Shown here: piece by piece, positions 3,002-13,153 of the stretch
How the letters are laid out: each line of letters starts with the position of its first letter
Numbering within the stretch: the stretch's first letter is position 1
NCBI GenBank assembly: GCA_947258975.1
Contig: CAMYKK010000003.1
Location: forward strand, 88,503-152,502
DNA: 64,000 nt
Source of the DNA: an uncultured Gammaproteobacteria bacterium
Lineage (GTDB): Bacteria > Pseudomonadota > Gammaproteobacteria > Arenicellales > JAANXG01
Reading direction: 5' to 3'
The notes under the pieces: generated by a model
The model's database searches: none
Seen by the model: the letters and a program-made list of their open reading frames with translations, nothing else
What the model was told of the DNA's origin: nothing
Position numbers and translations under genes: made by a program

Positions 3002-5452
<2,451 letters not shown>

Positions 5453-5752
5453 TCGAAAATCGCGGCACGCCCGCCCGCATCGGAGAGAGGGAATCGCACG
5501 ATCAGCCCCCCGCATTTGTCATCAGACGGCGCCAAAATTCGACTCCACGCCAACCCGTAAGGCATCGAGCCCCAGAGGGGACGACTCACAGGATGTTCCC
5601 GCACACGTGCGAAACCCGGCCCTGCCGGGTCCGCGCACGTTCGCGCTCGGCCTTTGCGCAAACGAAAACTGGGCCTGAGTGAAAATTCTGTCCCCTTGTT
5701 CTTGGCGCCAGACGCGGCGCCCCGCGACCGTGTGCTGCGTCATCTTCCGGCG
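5453..5752. other. Convergent intergenic region after thiC
   Basis: 300 bp between the convergent thiC and CDF genes. A GC-rich hairpin (acccggccctgccgggt, about 5611-5627) is nested in a region of further short inverted repeats (gcacacgtgcg). It may terminate thiC but has no clear U-run. Short minus-strand frames here show no family. Confidence 0.4.
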
Positions 5753-6409
5753 CTATGCGGGTTTGTGCTTGTCTGCCACCCGCGCCGGAGGATTACGATT
5801 CGCTGTGTAAGTTTCGGATGCATCGCGAATGACGTGAGATGCGGTCCGCAGAAACAGGGCGGCGATACCCAGGCCAACCAGTAAGTCCGGCCATTGTGAC
5901 TGGGAGATCCAAACACTGAACGCCGCAATCAGGACCGACACGTTGGCAATGATGTCATTCCGCGAACACAGCCAAACCGACCGCATATTTACGTCTTCCG
6001 TCCGGTGGTGCCAGAGAAGCGCAAGACAAACCGAGTTCCCCAGCAACGCGAGCACACCGATAACACCGATAGTCTCGTAGTGCGGGATTGATGGGTAAAG
6101 AAACTTATAAAACACGTGAATCAAGACAAAACTGCCGAATATCGCCATGATCCCGCCCTTGATATGGGCCGAGATTGCTTTCCAGGTATTATCGCGGGAA
6201 ACCACGTAGAGACTAAAGCCATACGCTAAGGCATCACCCAGCATGTCCAACGAGTCAGCGAGCAGTGCGGTAGATCCGGCAACAACACCCGCTACGATCT
6301 CCACCACGAACATAACAAGATTGATTGCCAACACCGCCTTTAAAGTCGCCCGCTGACGATTGACGAGCTTTTCGATCTCACACCCGGCTTTGGTGCAACA
6401 ATCCGTCAT
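5753..6409 (-). CDS. CDF-type cation transporter lacking a C-terminal domain
   Basis: A 218-residue membrane protein with the six-helix cation diffusion facilitator core and no cytoplasmic metal-sensing domain; the usual CDF length is about 300. Helix 2 carries the metal site 'LLADSLDMLGDALAYG' (D...D) and helix 5 'CSRNDIIANVSVLI' (D...N). The N-terminus is Cys-rich (DCCTKAGC), typical of short Zn/Co/Cd exporters related to CzcD. It is the last gene of the minus-strand arm, 3 bp after the PHA-like gene and after mamK. By position it could be a magnetosome-associated third CDF, as MamV is in some Magnetospirillum, but it is not obviously a MamB/MamM relative. Function as a metal exporter is likely; substrate unknown. 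Confidence 0.8.
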   Translation of the reverse strand: MTDCCTKAGCEIEKLVNRQRATLKAVLAINLVMFVVEIVAGVVAGSTALLADSLDMLGDALAYGFSLYVVSRDNTWKAISAHIKGGIMAIFGSFVLIHVFYKFLYPSIPHYETIGVIGVLALLGNSVCLALLWHHRTEDVNMRSVWLCSRNDIIANVSVLIAAFSVWISQSQWPDLLVGLGIAALFLRTASHVIRDASETYTANRNPPARVADKHKPA

Positions 6410-6412
6410 GCC

Positions 6413-6730
6413 CTACGTTCTTGGCGCCAACGCCTGTTGCAGATAGTCTTCGATATAACCGCTGGTTCGCTTGCGCAGCGGTTGCGCCGCCCACGGAACC
6501 CGGTACCGTACTTTAACCACCGCGGCTTCGATGACTACGTCTCCAGTTACGGAAATCCCTTGCACCTTGCCGACAAAGCGGTAGCCGGTTGTATCGCGCT
6601 CAAACGAGACGGCTTCGAGATAATCCATGGGTTCCGCGCCAGCGATCAGCCCCTCTAATCGCGCGATCGCCTCCTCTTCGGACAGCCCATGGGGTATTAG
6701 AACCGTGTCAGTCGCCAACGATGTCGCCAA
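6413..6730 (-). CDS. Small polyhydroxyalkanoic-acid-system-like protein
   Basis: A 105-residue protein resembling the PHA granule region family (Pfam PHA_gran_rgn): 'IPHGLSEEEAIARLEGLI', an alternating strand region 'YRFVGKVQGISVTGDVVI' and 'VKVRYRVPWAAQPLRKR'. Family members are small proteins of unknown biochemistry often near PHA granule genes. There is no ATG: the start is a TTG at 6730 or 6718, both inside the end of mamK, so translation is probably coupled to MamK. Its position directly behind mamK suggests a magnetosome-linked role, which is inference only. Confidence 0.6.
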   Translation of the reverse strand: MATSLATDTVLIPHGLSEEEAIARLEGLIAGAEPMDYLEAVSFERDTTGYRFVGKVQGISVTGDVVIEAAVVKVRYRVPWAAQPLRKRTSGYIEDYLQQALAPRT

Positions 6731-7886
6731 CCTGCCCCCAGTACTTCGGTGGAAGTTCCGATACCAGATTCAATCCGCCTTGGCATCCGGCGAAATCGGG
6801 ATCATCGACTCGGATGACCTTTACTGTACCGTAGTCCTTCATCCATTCGCTGATCATGGTATCGAGATTCCTGATGCGGGAGCCCCCGCCGGTGAGAACG
6901 ATATTTTGCAGCACGGCCTCCTGTTGGTCCGGTGAGTAGCTTCGCACCAGCACCTCCAGCTGTTGGACAATATCCGGAACGATAGACTCGCATGCTGCGC
7001 GGATATCGTCTGTCACGTCCAACTTTACGGGTTTTCCATCTTCGCGCAGTTCCGCCAGGACCTCCGCGTCGCTATCCATGACAAACGCGTGTTTCTCCTT
7101 AATGTCACAGGCGATGTTGGTGTTGATCTGCACACCGGGCCAGTGTTCCGCGATCTGCGCGGCAATCCGTTGGTCCAGATAATTACCGGCCTTCAAAAGG
7201 GTAGCCTGATCTTCAGCCTCCGGTAACTTGCCGCGGAGGGCGCAGATGTCGGTAGTCCCCGCACCAATGTCTACGACAATGGAATTGAGCAACTTTCCCT
7301 CGGAATATGCGACCATGAACGGCTCGGACAGAACGATCACCACGTCGAGGAGTTCGTGCGCCATGTTCAGCAGCAGCGCCTTGGAGGATGCCGAGGCACG
7401 CGCAGGCACCCCGATCACCCCGCACACCTGATCATCCTCCCCGGGTTCCGCCAATTCAATGACGTGGGCGAGCAGGCGACGAGCCACGTCGAGATCGCGA
7501 TCGGTGAGTTCACGCAACACCCCATCTGTTAGTGGGTACCTCAAATCCAGATAGGCGCGATTGGCGTACGCCTCTTCACCCACTACGAAGGCCGCACCCA
7601 AGAGTTTCACCCCTATGAGGTCCTTGGGATAACCCACCACCGAGCGCAGCCGGTACTTCGTCCCGCGGCTGGTTATCACCGAGGTCCAGGATGTACCGAG
7701 GTCGATACCCAGTATGAAGCGCTTATCGTCTGCAACGGTGTTGGGCACCGGTTCCGTGGGATTTACATCGGGACTGGAAACCGGTTTGAGTTCAGCGGGA
7801 GTCTTCCTGAATTCGACGGCGCCTTCTTCTTTAGTCATGCGCTCCCAAAAGCCCGCTTTATCTTTATCAAGACTGATGAATGACAT
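6708..7886 (-). CDS. mamK: Magnetosome actin-like protein MamK
   Basis: A 392-residue bacterial actin that polymerises into the filaments along which magnetosomes are aligned. Actin nucleotide-pocket motifs are present: phosphate 1 'GIDLGTSWTSV' (about residue 60), phosphate 2 'VVDIGAGTTD', and adenosine motif 'LTGGGSRI'. The segments 'LRSVVGYPKD' and 'YLDLRYPLTDGVLREL' match alphaproteobacterial MamK closely. Unusually, about 50 residues precede the actin fold (Pro/Glu-rich), whereas Magnetospirillum MamK starts about ten residues before it. A GGAGG lies 11 bases upstream of the ATG. It follows the mamJ-like gene by 23 bp and overlaps the next gene. Confidence 0.95.
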   Translation of the reverse strand: MSFISLDKDKAGFWERMTKEEGAVEFRKTPAELKPVSSPDVNPTEPVPNTVADDKRFILGIDLGTSWTSVITSRGTKYRLRSVVGYPKDLIGVKLLGAAFVVGEEAYANRAYLDLRYPLTDGVLRELTDRDLDVARRLLAHVIELAEPGEDDQVCGVIGVPARASASSKALLLNMAHELLDVVIVLSEPFMVAYSEGKLLNSIVVDIGAGTTDICALRGKLPEAEDQATLLKAGNYLDQRIAAQIAEHWPGVQINTNIACDIKEKHAFVMDSDAEVLAELREDGKPVKLDVTDDIRAACESIVPDIVQQLEVLVRSYSPDQQEAVLQNIVLTGGGSRIRNLDTMISEWMKDYGTVKVIRVDDPDFAGCQGGLNLVSELPPKYWGQVGDIVGD

Positions 7887-7909: not shown

Positions 7910-8869
7910 CTACTCAAGATTACCGGATTTTTTCGGCTTGCCGCCCCGGGCACGCCGGTACAGCCCGCCGACCCAGCCGACGCCCGAACTCACTCCGGAT
8001 AAAACACCGCCAAGGGCGCTTTGGCCCTTATTGATGACTCCGCCGATGGCGTTATGTCCCTTGTCAAGGACGAAGCCAAGGCCCCCGCCAAGCGTATTTG
8101 CCAGCCCCTCGAACAGGCCCTCGACGATAATTGTCTGTGTGGGCGCAGACTTGCTTCGTTCGGCGCCGGGTTGTTTCGGGCCGGGGACTCCGCCCATCGC
8201 AACTTGGTCGTGGGACTTACGGTTGATCTTGCGCGCGGTCGTATCCCGCCCATCACCGACGCGCTTTGTTGCTGTTCGTTTGGCACGGGCGCGCGTTTCC
8301 CCCGCGTTTTTGGCCGTCGTGGACGAGGTTTTTCGCTTTGTGCCGCCGTTTTCTTTTTGCGCTGCGGTTTTCTTGCGCGATGGTTTGGCGCCGTCCCCCG
8401 GGGTGGCCGGCTTGGTTTTCTGGTTTTCCGAAACGGTCGTCTTTTTTGCTGACGGTGGCGTCACCGTCTTGCCGGCTGCCGGACCGTTCTCTGTTGCCGG
8501 CGATGACGTGGCGTTGGCATCCTCCTCCTGTGACTTGTCAGCCGCATTTTTTTCTTCCGCTTCGGAAGCAGGGGAGGACTGCCATGGAGCGCCGTCCTCC
8601 CGCGGTTTCATGGGTGCGGGTCCTCCGATGCCTGCCGCCTGCGCGTCTTTTGCGGATTGCCGCGCCGACTGTTCAACGCGTTCGCCGGCCTTCGCTTTTG
8701 TCCGTTCAATCCAAGGCAGCTCCGTTTCGAGTTCGCTGAGCAGGTTGGACATATCACCGTTGGTGGCCGATCTCTTGCCGGCGCTACCGCTTCCTTTTGT
8801 TCGAGCCTTGGCCCGGGTTGCTGCGTTGCCGCTCCCTGGCCGGGTTTTTGCGTTGTCGTCAATCATCAT
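7910..8869 (-). CDS. MamJ-like low-complexity protein between mamE and mamK
   Basis: A 319-residue protein in the exact slot of mamJ, the acidic linker that tethers magnetosomes to MamK filaments. Most of it is low-complexity: Lys/Ala/Thr/Arg-rich (residues about 5-30 and 130-220), with a Glu/Asp/Ser patch near 90-120. The C-terminal 80 residues are Gly-rich and hydrophobic (GLFEGLANTLGGGLGFVL, then repeated GVINKGQSALGGVLSG), recalling the Gly/Val-rich C-terminus of MamJ. A short motif near residue 40, 'LLSELETELPWIERTK', may bind a partner. Unlike MamJ, it is net basic and has no long Glu-Pro repeats. The start at 8869 has GAGG four bases ahead; a second ATG follows at once. Functional equivalence with MamJ is inferred from position and architecture. 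Confidence 0.7.
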   Translation of the reverse strand: MMIDDNAKTRPGSGNAATRAKARTKGSGSAGKRSATNGDMSNLLSELETELPWIERTKAKAGERVEQSARQSAKDAQAAGIGGPAPMKPREDGAPWQSSPASEAEEKNAADKSQEEDANATSSPATENGPAAGKTVTPPSAKKTTVSENQKTKPATPGDGAKPSRKKTAAQKENGGTKRKTSSTTAKNAGETRARAKRTATKRVGDGRDTTARKINRKSHDQVAMGGVPGPKQPGAERSKSAPTQTIIVEGLFEGLANTLGGGLGFVLDKGHNAIGGVINKGQSALGGVLSGVSSGVGWVGGLYRRARGGKPKKSGNLE

Positions 8870-8899
8870 AGGTCCTCATTTTTATCGTTACGATCTCGG

Positions 8900-10924
8900 C
8901 TAGCCGAGCCTCACAAACAGATCGCGTCCGCCCCGCCTGATCTTGAGCCATACCGGCTGGGCCTGACCTGCGGCCAGAACCGCACGGTTTAGGCGTGCGG
9001 CGGTATCGACGGGCGCCATATCAATCATTAGAATCACGTCGTTATTCCGTATTCCTGCCGCGCTTGCCCTCGAGCCTGGCGTGACCTCTTCCACCAGCGC
9101 CCCCGAGGCTCCCGCCGCGTTGGGATTCGCGGGCGCAATCGTCATCATCTCCATTCCGCGCCAGTTCAGCTCTTTTGGCGCGGCTTGTGGCTGCGGCGCG
9201 GCGGTCATCCCGGGCAGGGACATCGCCAACACCTCGACCTTCAGGTTGCGGCGCCGCCCATCGTGAAGGACACCCAAACGCACTTTGTCACCGTTTACAA
9301 ATTCCCCCATACGCCGCACCAGTTGACGCGGGCTGCGCAGCCGCCGCCCCTCCAGTTTCAGCAACACGTCACCGGCGCGGACGCCGGACTCGTCCATGGG
9401 CGAACCCGGCACAACCGCGCTCACGAACACGCCTTTACCAGCCGGCTGCCCCAGGCGCTCGGACAAGAGCTGGTCAATGGGCAACACAGTAGCGCCCAGC
9501 ACGCGGGGGCCGTCGCTCGCAAAGCGTGCGTCCGTGATCGCGACGTTCATACCCAGCCCCGGCGGCGGACCGGCGTACTGGAAAGCCACCGCGGCATTGG
9601 CATTCTGTATCTGATGGCACTGAGCGCACGCCATTGCCTCGCGCCCGTCCCGATGGGGAGGCGGTGCACCGGCGGCAATGGGTGGTCCCGCTTGAGCGGG
9701 CACGGGGGCCGCAGTGCTGCCTTGCCGACCCGTACCGGGGGTCGCAAAAGCCATGCCCGCTACCGGCCTGCCCGCCGCCTGGCGCGTCCCCAAGATCTGA
9801 TGGCAGGCGGCGCAGTCCATCTGCTCCCTTCCATCTGCGTGCGGTGACGCAGCGCCACGCGCGATGAGCGGCGCCGCCGGCGCTGCCGCGATGCGCCGAT
9901 TTGCCGGTCGTGTTGCCCGCCGCGGACCCGGGGCTCCAGTCGCCGCCCTGAGGTCTATTTCATCGCGCAGGAACTGTATCGCGTCATTGGCGGGAATCGC
10001 AAAACCGATACCGGCAAAGGCGCCCGTTGGGCTGTAGATCGCCGTATTGATGCCGATGACGTAACCGTTGCGGTCTACCAGCGGGCCGCCGGAATTGCCC
10101 TGATTGATCGCCGCATCGGTCTGCAGCAAATTGTTATGCGCCACGCCGTCGATGATCAGCGATTTGCGCGTCCCTGAGATCACCCCCTGACTCACCGTTT
10201 GATCCAGTCCGAAGGGGCTGCCGATCGTCAGTACCGGATCCGCCGCCTGTGCCCGGTTGCTGTCGCCCAGGCGCGCGGAGGTAAGCCGTGATTGCGGATT
10301 GATCTTCAGCAACGCAAGGTCGAGAACCTCATCGAGTTTCACCACTTCGGCCGTGTAGCGCTGTGTGCCGAGGTCGTCGAAGACCGTCACGTAGACTGCG
10401 GCGCCACTTTGCACCACGTGAAAATTGGTGAGGATATAGCCGTCGTCGCGCACCACCACCCCGGACCCGATGCTCTCCACGGTGCGGCCGGTAGAGGGAT
10501 CTGCGAAGCGGACCCCGCCGGGCGGTTTCGGTGGCGCGTTCTGCGCGGTCGCAGGCGCCTGCTTCTCAAGCGTGCCGGCACGGGCTACGTTTACGTTGAC
10601 CACGCTTTTTTTGAGCTGGGCCGCCACGCTCGAGAAGCCGCGCGCGACCGGTAGCGCCGCGGCAACGGGCCGGTTCGTGGCCGGCGCCAGCGAGCTGGAC
10701 CGGTTGGCCGTGACCGGGTTTACCACGGCGCCCGGTGCGGTGCCGCGCCCGCCGGGATAATCGATATGGGCGTTCTTCAGGTCTACGTCGACCCCCAGGG
10801 TGTAGTAATTTATGTACCAGTAGGTGCCGATTAGGACCAGCACTGCTACCGCCGCGACCAGCAGGAAATACTTCTGCAGGTCTTTGCCGCAGAAATCTTC
10901 AGCGTCTGATTCAAGAAAACTCAT
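8900..10924 (-). CDS. mamE: Magnetosome serine protease MamE (HtrA-like, two magnetochromes, two PDZ)
   Basis: A 674-residue protein that in magnetotactic bacteria sorts proteins to the magnetosome and proteolytically switches crystal growth. Order: one TM helix (about 18-42); trypsin-like domain with intact triad H169 (LTNFHVV), D202 (VLDLALLKI) and S278 (GNSGGPL); two CxxCH magnetochrome motifs at 371-375 and 433-437, each preceded by the 'PHADGRE' or 'PHRDGRE' signature; two PDZ domains (about 480-570 and 590-670). Stop is followed closely by the mamJ-like gene (30 bp), and mamI lies 6 bp upstream, so it is cotranscribed. Domain order is identical to alphaproteobacterial MamE. Confidence 0.97.
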   Translation of the reverse strand: MSFLESDAEDFCGKDLQKYFLLVAAVAVLVLIGTYWYINYYTLGVDVDLKNAHIDYPGGRGTAPGAVVNPVTANRSSSLAPATNRPVAAALPVARGFSSVAAQLKKSVVNVNVARAGTLEKQAPATAQNAPPKPPGGVRFADPSTGRTVESIGSGVVVRDDGYILTNFHVVQSGAAVYVTVFDDLGTQRYTAEVVKLDEVLDLALLKINPQSRLTSARLGDSNRAQAADPVLTIGSPFGLDQTVSQGVISGTRKSLIIDGVAHNNLLQTDAAINQGNSGGPLVDRNGYVIGINTAIYSPTGAFAGIGFAIPANDAIQFLRDEIDLRAATGAPGPRRATRPANRRIAAAPAAPLIARGAASPHADGREQMDCAACHQILGTRQAAGRPVAGMAFATPGTGRQGSTAAPVPAQAGPPIAAGAPPPHRDGREAMACAQCHQIQNANAAVAFQYAGPPPGLGMNVAITDARFASDGPRVLGATVLPIDQLLSERLGQPAGKGVFVSAVVPGSPMDESGVRAGDVLLKLEGRRLRSPRQLVRRMGEFVNGDKVRLGVLHDGRRRNLKVEVLAMSLPGMTAAPQPQAAPKELNWRGMEMMTIAPANPNAAGASGALVEEVTPGSRASAAGIRNNDVILMIDMAPVDTAARLNRAVLAAGQAQPVWLKIRRGGRDLFVRLG

Positions 10925-10930
10925 CCAGGG

Positions 10931-11155
10931 CTACTCGGTCTCGTCGATGGGTTCCTCGTCGTCGATCAGATCCTCATCTTTCACCTCTTGCTCCGTGCGC
11001 ACTTTGGATACGCCTGTGGCGAGAGCGAGCATACCGACCAGCAACAGGACGATCGGAACCAGTCCACGAAGCAGTTCGGCGACTGACCACCACCAGACCG
11101 TCAAAGCCCACAATCCGCAGGCAAGCGCCAATAGGCCAATGATGATATTAGGCAT
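10931..11155 (-). CDS. mamI: Magnetosome membrane protein MamI
   Basis: A 74-residue protein with two TM helices and an acidic cytoplasmic tail. MamI is one of the few proteins needed to invaginate the inner membrane into a magnetosome. The start MPNIIIGLLALACGLWALT and 'VWWWSVAELLRG' followed by a second helix ending 'ALATGVSKVR' match MamI of Magnetospirillum. The tail here is longer and strongly acidic (EVKDEDLIDDEEPIDETE). The ATG at 11155 is preceded by GGAG seven bases upstream; the longer open frame to 11257 runs into mamH and is rejected. It lies 43 bp after mamH and 6 bp before mamE. Confidence 0.92.
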   Translation of the reverse strand: MPNIIIGLLALACGLWALTVWWWSVAELLRGLVPIVLLLVGMLALATGVSKVRTEQEVKDEDLIDDEEPIDETE

Positions 11156-11198
11156 ACAGTTACTCCAGGTCACAAAGCAAGAATGGTTGGGCAATGGC

Positions 11199-12485
11199 TC
11201 ACAACAGCGACTCCGCCTCGGCATGCAACGGATGCGTATCCCCGCGACCCGTCCCAATTCGTTGATCTGCCCGCATTACCCATAAGGAATAGCTCAGAAT
11301 CAACAGATTCCCCACCCCGGTGAACACAAACGGGGCGTGCGGACCAACCGCGTCAAACAGAAAACCGCCGATCTGAACGAACAAAACGATACCGATGCTG
11401 CCCACCACGAAGAACATGCCGAGTACGGCGCCGCGCATTTCCGGTGGTGCCAGATCCACCGCCAAAACCTGCGGTGCGACCAGACAACCCGCCTGTCCGG
11501 CTGCCAGCAGGGCTGCGGGAATCAGCACCATCCAGCCGAATGGATTGACGATAAACCCAAACCACACGAGACCGATGCCGGACAGGGCCATACCGGCTGC
11601 AATCGCCGCCACACGGCCGTACCGGTCGATGAATATCCCCCACAAGGGTATCGACACCAGCACGGTAAACCCGATCAGTCCCACCACCATCCCGGCGTGA
11701 CCTGCGGCCTCCCCCTGACCCATACCGACCACATCGGCGAAATACACAAACCAGAGCATGAGGAACAGGCCGATGAACACCATGTCGTTGCGCGCGAAAA
11801 AGGCCGAGGCGAAGGACAATCTCAGGCGCGGCTCGGCGCGCAGCAGCCTCCAGACCTGCTTGAGCGACGCCTTGCCGTTCGTTACTCGGGGGGCCACATC
11901 GATCAAACAACGCCGGCTCAACCACGCGCCCACGAGCGCTACCGCAGCGGTCAGCAGCATGACCGCACCGAGCCCGGCGTGCTGGGGAATCTGCATCAGC
12001 ACCGCGTAGACGATGGTGGCCCCAAACGCCATCATAAATGCCGTTTTCGTCATCAGTTCCGCACGGTTCCGGTAGCTAGTGAAATCCCCCGCCAGGGTGG
12101 AGAGTTGCGGCCAGACCGCGCCGGTACCCAACGACATCACGATGCGCATGGTGAAGTAGAAGAACAACCCACCGATCCCGAACAGCGCTCCCAGCTCCAG
12201 GCTGAAGGTCGCGAGAAACGCCCCCAACGCCGCAACCAGGAAACCGCCCACCACAATCGGCACGCGGCCGTACCGATCAGACAGAAATCCCAGATACCCG
12301 ATCAGCACCAGGTCCAGGATTTCCGTCACCGCTTGGATGCTGGCGTTGATTGCGCCCGCGTTCTCCAGTCCGACGCCGAGGACATTGCGTAGATAAAGAG
12401 GCTGCACGGCGATGGCCAGTGTCATGAAAATCATGCTCAAGGCCGCCAGCAGGTACAGCGAGTTCCAGTGATGGCTCTTGACCAT
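11199..12485 (-). CDS. mamH: Magnetosome MFS transporter MamH
   Basis: A 428-residue major facilitator protein with about 12 TM helices, the same length as Magnetospirillum MamH. MamH contributes to iron supply for magnetite. Recognisable blocks are 'LIGYLGFLSDRYGRVPIVVG' (the MFS loop 2-3 motif) and 'MSLGTGAVWPQLSTLAGDF', and it heads the canonical mamHIEJK order. It starts at an ATG (12485), with a 252-bp gap upstream to mamF in which no gene is seen and a promoter could lie. Identity is supported strongly by position plus family; general MFS similarity alone would be weaker. Confidence 0.92.
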   Translation of the reverse strand: MVKSHHWNSLYLLAALSMIFMTLAIAVQPLYLRNVLGVGLENAGAINASIQAVTEILDLVLIGYLGFLSDRYGRVPIVVGGFLVAALGAFLATFSLELGALFGIGGLFFYFTMRIVMSLGTGAVWPQLSTLAGDFTSYRNRAELMTKTAFMMAFGATIVYAVLMQIPQHAGLGAVMLLTAAVALVGAWLSRRCLIDVAPRVTNGKASLKQVWRLLRAEPRLRLSFASAFFARNDMVFIGLFLMLWFVYFADVVGMGQGEAAGHAGMVVGLIGFTVLVSIPLWGIFIDRYGRVAAIAAGMALSGIGLVWFGFIVNPFGWMVLIPAALLAAGQAGCLVAPQVLAVDLAPPEMRGAVLGMFFVVGSIGIVLFVQIGGFLFDAVGPHAPFVFTGVGNLLILSYSLWVMRADQRIGTGRGDTHPLHAEAESLL

Positions 12486-12737: not shown

Positions 12738-13061
12738 TTACAGATGGCGCGCCAGTGGATAAGCCAATGGCAGTTTCCACGCCTTGTGCAGGAGTACCGA
12801 GACCAGACCCACCGCGGAGAGCGTGACGATTACCATGGCGGAGAAGCTGAATACCCATTTACCGACGCCGGGCACGTGCAGCGCAAATACGGCCAGGATA
12901 CCCCACATCCAGATGACCAGCCCCTGTCGCGAATGAAAATACACGAACTCGTCATCGCGGTTCATCAGCAGCGGCACAAAGCACAGAATCCCCATGTAGC
13001 TCATAGCCGCCATAATGCGGGAACGCGTACCGCCCTCGGTGTGAAGCACTGTCGTCGTCAT
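12738..13061 (-). CDS. mamF: Magnetosome size-control membrane protein MamF/MmsF
   Basis: A 107-residue protein with three predicted TM helices of the MamF/MmsF (DUF4870) family, which governs crystal size and shape. Signature segments: '[20 protein letters not shown]' and '[12 protein letters not shown]', then '[13 protein letters not shown]'. The match to MamF is very close over the whole length. An AGGAG lies nine bases before the ATG at 13061; a GTG one codon earlier is also possible. It lies 92 bp downstream of mms6 on the same strand. MamF and MmsF are too similar to separate by eye. Confidence 0.92.
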
Positions 13062-13153
13062 CACGTCATACTCCTAAAACCTTTTGTTTTTACCGCCTGT
13101 CGTTGTTCCAAATATGCGTGCGACCGCACCATCAAGACGCACATTGGCATCGG

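Follow-up and report, generated by a model that had tools for sequence, protein, structure and literature searches.

Within the analyzed stretch of DNA (the window, 64,000 nucleotides), a cluster of magnetosome genes is encoded on the negative strand. An ORF at 7910..8869(-), here named JL1, lies between mamE (8900..10924) and mamK (6708..7886), the position of mamJ, and encodes a 319-aa MamJ-like protein with a basic linker. The spacing is operon-like, with 30 nt between the mamE stop and the JL1 start and 23 nt between the JL1 end and the mamK start. Ribosome-binding-like sequences precede the starts of both JL1 and mamK, the one before JL1 being a plausible Shine-Dalgarno sequence (GAGGACCT-ATG). 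The flanking genes and this spacing bore out the earlier assignment of JL1 to the mamJ slot, made from the sequence alone. GC content by codon position did not discriminate JL1 from the antisense ORF at 7938-8903(+), a usual high-GC mirror ORF, which was ruled out by homology.

The mamK product scored 487.7 bits against the NCBIfam MamK model (cut-off, 400) and was nearest to MamK of two gammaproteobacterial MAGs, nzgw581 (locus L074) and X1_MaxBin.010 (L078). It carries an unusual N-terminal extension of 56 aa (7715-7886); among 145 MamK-type matches, the median extension was 10, and 10 exceeded 40. The mamE product has two magnetochrome motifs, and MamE was by far its best family, although the score of 590 bits falls under that model's own cut-off of 800. 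Further upstream, NCBIfam models identified mamI (10931..11257(-)) and mamH (11199..12485(-)). The product of 12738..13064(-) shares 60 to 63% identity with proteins encoded in the magnetosome clusters of Magnetospirillum and is named here, after PMC11628618, as a MamF/MmsF-like protein of the Tic20-related class. In Magnetospirillum, this class inserts MamJ into the magnetosome membrane (PMC11628618). On the 3' side of mamK are a PF09650 (putative PHA-system) gene at 6413-6730(-) and a cation-diffusion-facilitator gene at 5753-6409(-).

JL1 has a pI of 10.2 and a net charge of about +21 at pH 7.4, with 33 K, 21 R, 43 A, 27 T, and 44 G. Its single acidic patch (charge -5) spans residues 101-120, with residues 101-118 at 8516..8569; a Lys/Arg/Thr/Ala-rich basic linker follows at residues 141-241 (8147..8449), the most basic stretch being residues 161-220. 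Residues 247-303 form a Gly/Val-rich end. The composition thus agrees with the sequence-only reading, which had described a Lys/Ala/Thr-rich middle, one acidic patch, a Gly/Val-rich end, and a charge inverted relative to MamJ. That reading had also called the protein repeat-poor, which is true of the linker but not of the tail, made of 11-residue repeats.

Well over 100 mamK loci came from searching 398 Pseudomonadota genomes for MamK and from a named scan of contigs in GTDB. The genes upstream of mamK were highly unlike in length, composition, and charge. Near the ends of their products, a motif recurred, [VI]xVExLxxGxxNxLGxxVxxV, with examples in a bona fide MamJ (L065, 507 bits against NF040987; VPVEDLLGGIFGIGGSAVRSVL), a Mariprofundus-labelled MAG (L124; IEVEGLFDGVINTLGGGLGKVF), nzgw581 (ILIEGLGRGVFNALGNGVGRIV), and JL1 (IIVEGLFEGLANTLGGGLGFVL). 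In JL1, the motif occupies residues 247-270 (IIVEGLFEGLANTLGGGLGFVLDK; 8060..8131(-)), and its score was reached by none of 20,000 shuffles of either the whole protein or the local 80 residues.

From 17 mamJ-slot tails of other genomes, with JL1 and its paralogue JL2 left out, we built a profile, A3. Searched against the whole 5.5-Mb genome, A3 matched only JL2 (E, 1.2e-10) and JL1 (7.5e-8), the next match being at 0.21, and hhalign of JL1 plus JL2 against A3 gave a probability of 97.7% (E, 2.5e-12). JL1 thus falls in the wider MamJ-tail family defined by A3, its match lying far above the genome background; the homologous part comprises only some 40 to 60 residues. An HMM made from Magnetospirillum-type MamJ tails only gave E values of 3e-5 for JL2, 3.4e-5 for L078, 0.0056 for L074, and 0.61 for JL1. 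The NCBIfam MamJ equivalog model (NF040987) matched JL2 over its C-terminus (0.0016; 18.1 bits, below the curated cut-off of 100 bits) and did not match JL1. JL1 alone is missed by, or scores weakly with, these MamJ models; what connects it to Magnetospirillum MamJ is JL2, together with the family at large.

Other searches of JL1 returned no Pfam, NCBIfam, or PHROG family; no Mad family (the coiled-coil chain proteins of Desulfobacterota) appeared in the Pfam and NCBIfam scans, and no relative was found in the viral contigs searched. The strict MamJ motifs are an N-terminal DxWx2LLExSPWS and a C-terminal VPVEx4GxFx2AxSA (PMC2818848). At the C-terminal site, JL1 (IIVEGLFEGLANTLGGG) keeps VEx4G, without GxF and AxSA. 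The strict N-terminal motif was not found in JL1, and a wider profile of the MamJ/SPW motif was matched equally well by 1,479 of 5,000 shuffles; residues 44-60 (LSELETELPWIERTKAK; 8690..8740(-)) may be a relic of LLxxSPW. The JL1 site ELPWIERTK resembles APWLQRTR (L058) and QPWLQRMR (L069 and L070), again without significance. A second, weak PW site lies at residues 87-103 (8561..8611(-)); placing the two linker tryptophans of JL1 in two PW sites, a pattern chosen after looking, is mildly unusual (254 of 50,000 shuffles). Central acidic repeats are absent from JL1, and its C-terminus is Gly-rich and moderately hydrophobic, as in MamJ, with a predicted anchor function. JL1 is, by its tail sequence, MamJ-like and a strongly diverged member of the family; we do not call it a MamJ equivalog because it lacks the curated score, both strict motifs, and the acidic repeats.

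PW dipeptides are enriched in the family's linkers before the tail motif (43 versus 21 expected), mostly as LLxxSPW, of which L074 and L078 have three copies each; on sequence grounds, PW/LLxxSPW is a candidate short motif for MamK binding. Two variants of the architecture were also seen. In several Magnetococcales, a protein of about 100 aa with the MamJ tail motif and nearly no linker is encoded directly downstream of mamK (L013:2668-3000, L101:6843-7175, L030:2594-2920, and L097:11319-11639). In two alphaproteobacteria, a second MamJ-family protein with two linker PW motifs is encoded away from mamK (L070:3742-5058 and L069:3432-4928).

Of the 398 sampled Pseudomonadota genomes, 51 have MamK, and 48 of these carried the tail (E ≤ 1e-4); the 347 lacking MamK yielded no tail match. 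At least 5 of the 17 A3 training tails came from this same sample, so the sensitivity is slightly optimistic, whereas the specificity is unaffected. The three MamK genomes with no tail match (G133, G165, and G195) are 75 to 81% complete. Neither MamK nor the tail was found in 12 sampled members of the window organism's family, nor in five other sampled genomes of its genus (G398 to G402). This absence from the genus suggests that the cluster in the window's genome was gained horizontally or lost repeatedly in relatives.

The tail of JL1 contains four 11-residue amphipathic repeats at residues 258-301 (7967..8098(-)): NTLGGGLGFVL, DKGHNAIGGVI, NKGQSALGGVL, and SGVSSGVGWVG. A lag of 11 gave the strongest self-similarity in both JL1 and JL2 (z, 3.5 and 4.7, respectively), as it did when 24 tails of the family were averaged (mean z, 2.1), although the signal was absent in some, including those of the gammaproteobacteria L074 and L078 and several Magnetococcales. 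At 98.2 degrees, which corresponds to 11 residues per three turns, the hydrophobic moment was significant in JL1 (p, 0.0002), JL2 (0.0004), and one true MamJ (0.004). The JL1 tail consists of 29% Gly with five GxxxG; its best 21-residue hydropathy, 1.26, is low for a transmembrane helix. AlphaFold predicted two helices in this tail with low confidence (pLDDT, 56), too weak for a fold search. We infer that the tail forms an amphipathic helix located within the magnetosome membrane or on its surface. MamJ of M. gryphiswaldense is anchored in this membrane by its Gly-rich C-terminus, for which MamF-like proteins are needed (PMC11628618).

The paralogue JL2 (contig C77:5779-6471, 230 aa) is encoded in the same genome and is 41% identical to JL1 residues 115-316; relative to JL1, its tail has an insertion of exactly 11 residues, that is, one extra repeat unit. 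Its neighbors are a second divergent mamK, a 150-aa membrane-plus-coiled-coil protein, and an Mms6-like gene. Together, they form a second islet (locus L035, positions 3068-6471), the mamK of which, at 391 bits, narrowly misses the NCBIfam cut-off. The Mms6-like frame (L035:5281-5790) is broken, with its Leu-Gly-rich C-terminus in another frame, reflecting a frameshift or an assembly error. The coiled-coil proteins encoded upstream of the second mamK in this islet (L035:4227-4679(-)) and in genome G100 (L037:7675-8013(-)) are 37% identical (E, 1.9e-6) and end in a similar AMLKxIxDDN segment; judging from these sequences, the protein is a candidate partner of the second MamK. The magnetotaxis islet of AMB-1 likewise holds MamK-like and MamJ-like genes and resembles C77 with JL2 (PMC2818848).

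With Magnetospirillum MamJ (NF040987), JL1 shares the slot between mamE and mamK, the VE-x4-G tail motif, a low-complexity middle, and a Gly-rich amphipathic C-terminus with an 11-residue repeat. It differs in that its linker is basic, Glu-Pro repeats and a C-terminal Cys motif are missing, DxWx2LLExSPWS is not clearly present, and the score stays below the MamJ cut-off. The AMB-1 islet MamJ-like protein also lacks acidic repeats but, unlike JL1, keeps both strict motifs (PMC2818848). By its published description, rather than by sequence, JL1 can be likened to Mg-1g50 of Magnetovibrio blakemorei MV-1, a protein of about 300 aa encoded directly upstream of mamK and devoid of the CAR domain, which substitutes for MamJ in M. 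gryphiswaldense (PMC10653835). The MamJ-like protein of G2-11 occupies the syntenic slot, as JL1 does, with only N- and C-terminal residues conserved, but is longer (563 aa) and very acidic (pI, ~3.3); with it, a mamJ mutant of MSR-1 regains chain-like order (PMC9938234). The slot proteins of L074 and L078 are strongly basic (pI, 11.4) and have the same tail motif as JL1, but they comprise about 530 aa with three clear SPW motifs.

JL1 is very probably a divergent MamJ-family adaptor that tethers magnetosomes as MamJ does, with its tail in the membrane, its N-terminal part on MamK, and a variable spacer between them. This reading draws on the slot, the operon-like spacing, the tail homology, the MamK-limited distribution, the periodicity, and the presence of a MamF-like gene. 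By analogy with published work on MamJ, the tail (residues 247-303, the VE-x4-G motif followed by the amphipathic Gly-rich repeats) would insert into the magnetosome membrane, probably assisted by the MamF-like protein of the same cluster. The N-terminal part presumably contacts MamK, and the Lys/Arg/Ala/Thr-rich middle would serve as a flexible, hypervariable spacer. Together, these parts would tether magnetosomes to the MamK filament and support chain assembly.

Net-positive linkers were found in 17 of 69 tail-bearing proteins encoded next to mamK, including those of two other gammaproteobacteria (+48 and +50), several Magnetococcales, and a Nitrospinota MAG; the Rhodospirillaceae slot proteins L056 and L059 are also basic. 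Linker charge density correlated inversely with the charge of the adjacent MamK (Spearman, -0.69, n = 69; -0.61, n = 68 after deduplication). The linkers carry +10 charges per 100 aa next to a MamK of about -22 in L074 and L078 and +7.4 next to about -19 in JL1, whereas Magnetospirillum shows the opposite pairing, -12 to -18 next to about -5 to -9. Such pairing would be expected if the basic linker itself bound the acidic surface of MamK, the inversion being functional and co-evolving with the filament. However, the correlation vanished under phylogenetic independent contrasts on the MamK tree (r, -0.05; p, 0.68) and rests on few deep splits; it is, therefore, not evidence of co-evolution. L036 (linker, -38; MamK, -20) and L117 (-9 and -18) are exceptions to the trend, and MamJ can do without its acidic repeat in chain assembly (PMC10653835, PMC12748827). 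We consider charge-matched binding unlikely. We would likewise give little credence to the extended proposal that MamJ proteins of gammaproteobacteria and some Magnetococcales grip acidic MamK electrostatically in charge-matched pairs, non-interchangeable between lineages, with the repeat tail as a length-tunable anchor, the last element being suggested by the one additional repeat in JL2. Given the loss of the trend after contrasts and the dispensable acidic repeat, the simplest reading is that the linker of JL1 is an unconstrained, unconserved spacer. The earlier suggestion that inverted charge implies a different mode of attachment to MamK gained no positive support, in view of these same two results, the working CAR-less Mg-1g50, and the scattered occurrence of basic linkers (17 of the 69 proteins).

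The sequence-only reading had alternatively proposed an independently evolved linker, which would have replaced MamJ in the window's lineage. The opposite charge, the lack of a family assignment, and the nonsignificant N-terminal motif favor such a replacement, but it is contradicted by the tail homology and the near-perfect association of the tail with MamK genomes and is already refuted for the tail; we regard it as very unlikely. The Gly-rich end had been recognized there as common to MamJ, in keeping with the match to A3. Two findings named in advance as arguing against that reading, profile homology to MamJ and acidic repeats in relatives, were both made: the former by A3 and hhalign, the latter in proteins such as that of L036 in G100, where an EAEAEA repeat is joined to the family tail TPVEGLFDGVINAFGNGLGHVI. 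The N-terminal two-thirds of JL1 may be of fusion origin. A histone H1- or phasin-like tether, linking magnetosomes to the nucleoid via the Lys/Ala/Thr-rich part, would fit the composition of JL1, the PF09650 gene beside mamK, and a weak similarity of the L124 slot protein to Pfam HC2 (1.6e-5, under the cut-off). Yet JL1 itself matches no such family, the L124 protein is net acidic, and basic composition is not kept across the family, which makes this tether highly improbable.

The MamJ motifs, the dispensability of the repeat, and single distant relatives (in MV-1 and G2-11) are already known. One survey states that mamJ is found only in Magnetospirillum (PMC9840458); another failed to find it in Ca. 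Etaproteobacteria and remarked on maq1 there by position only (PMC6783814), and both ask what joins magnetosomes to MamK outside Magnetospirillum. In the open-access literature, we found no account of a tail motif marking the mamJ slot across magnetotactic Pseudomonadota, though an earlier report is possible. In 48 of the 51 sampled Pseudomonadota genomes that bear MamK, and in no other genome of the sample, one short tail profile picks out a MamJ-like protein, which in most cases occupies the mamJ slot. For gammaproteobacteria, zetaproteobacteria-like bacteria, and magnetotactic cocci, this provides a named candidate for the tether, and it shows that MamJ is not defined by its acidity.
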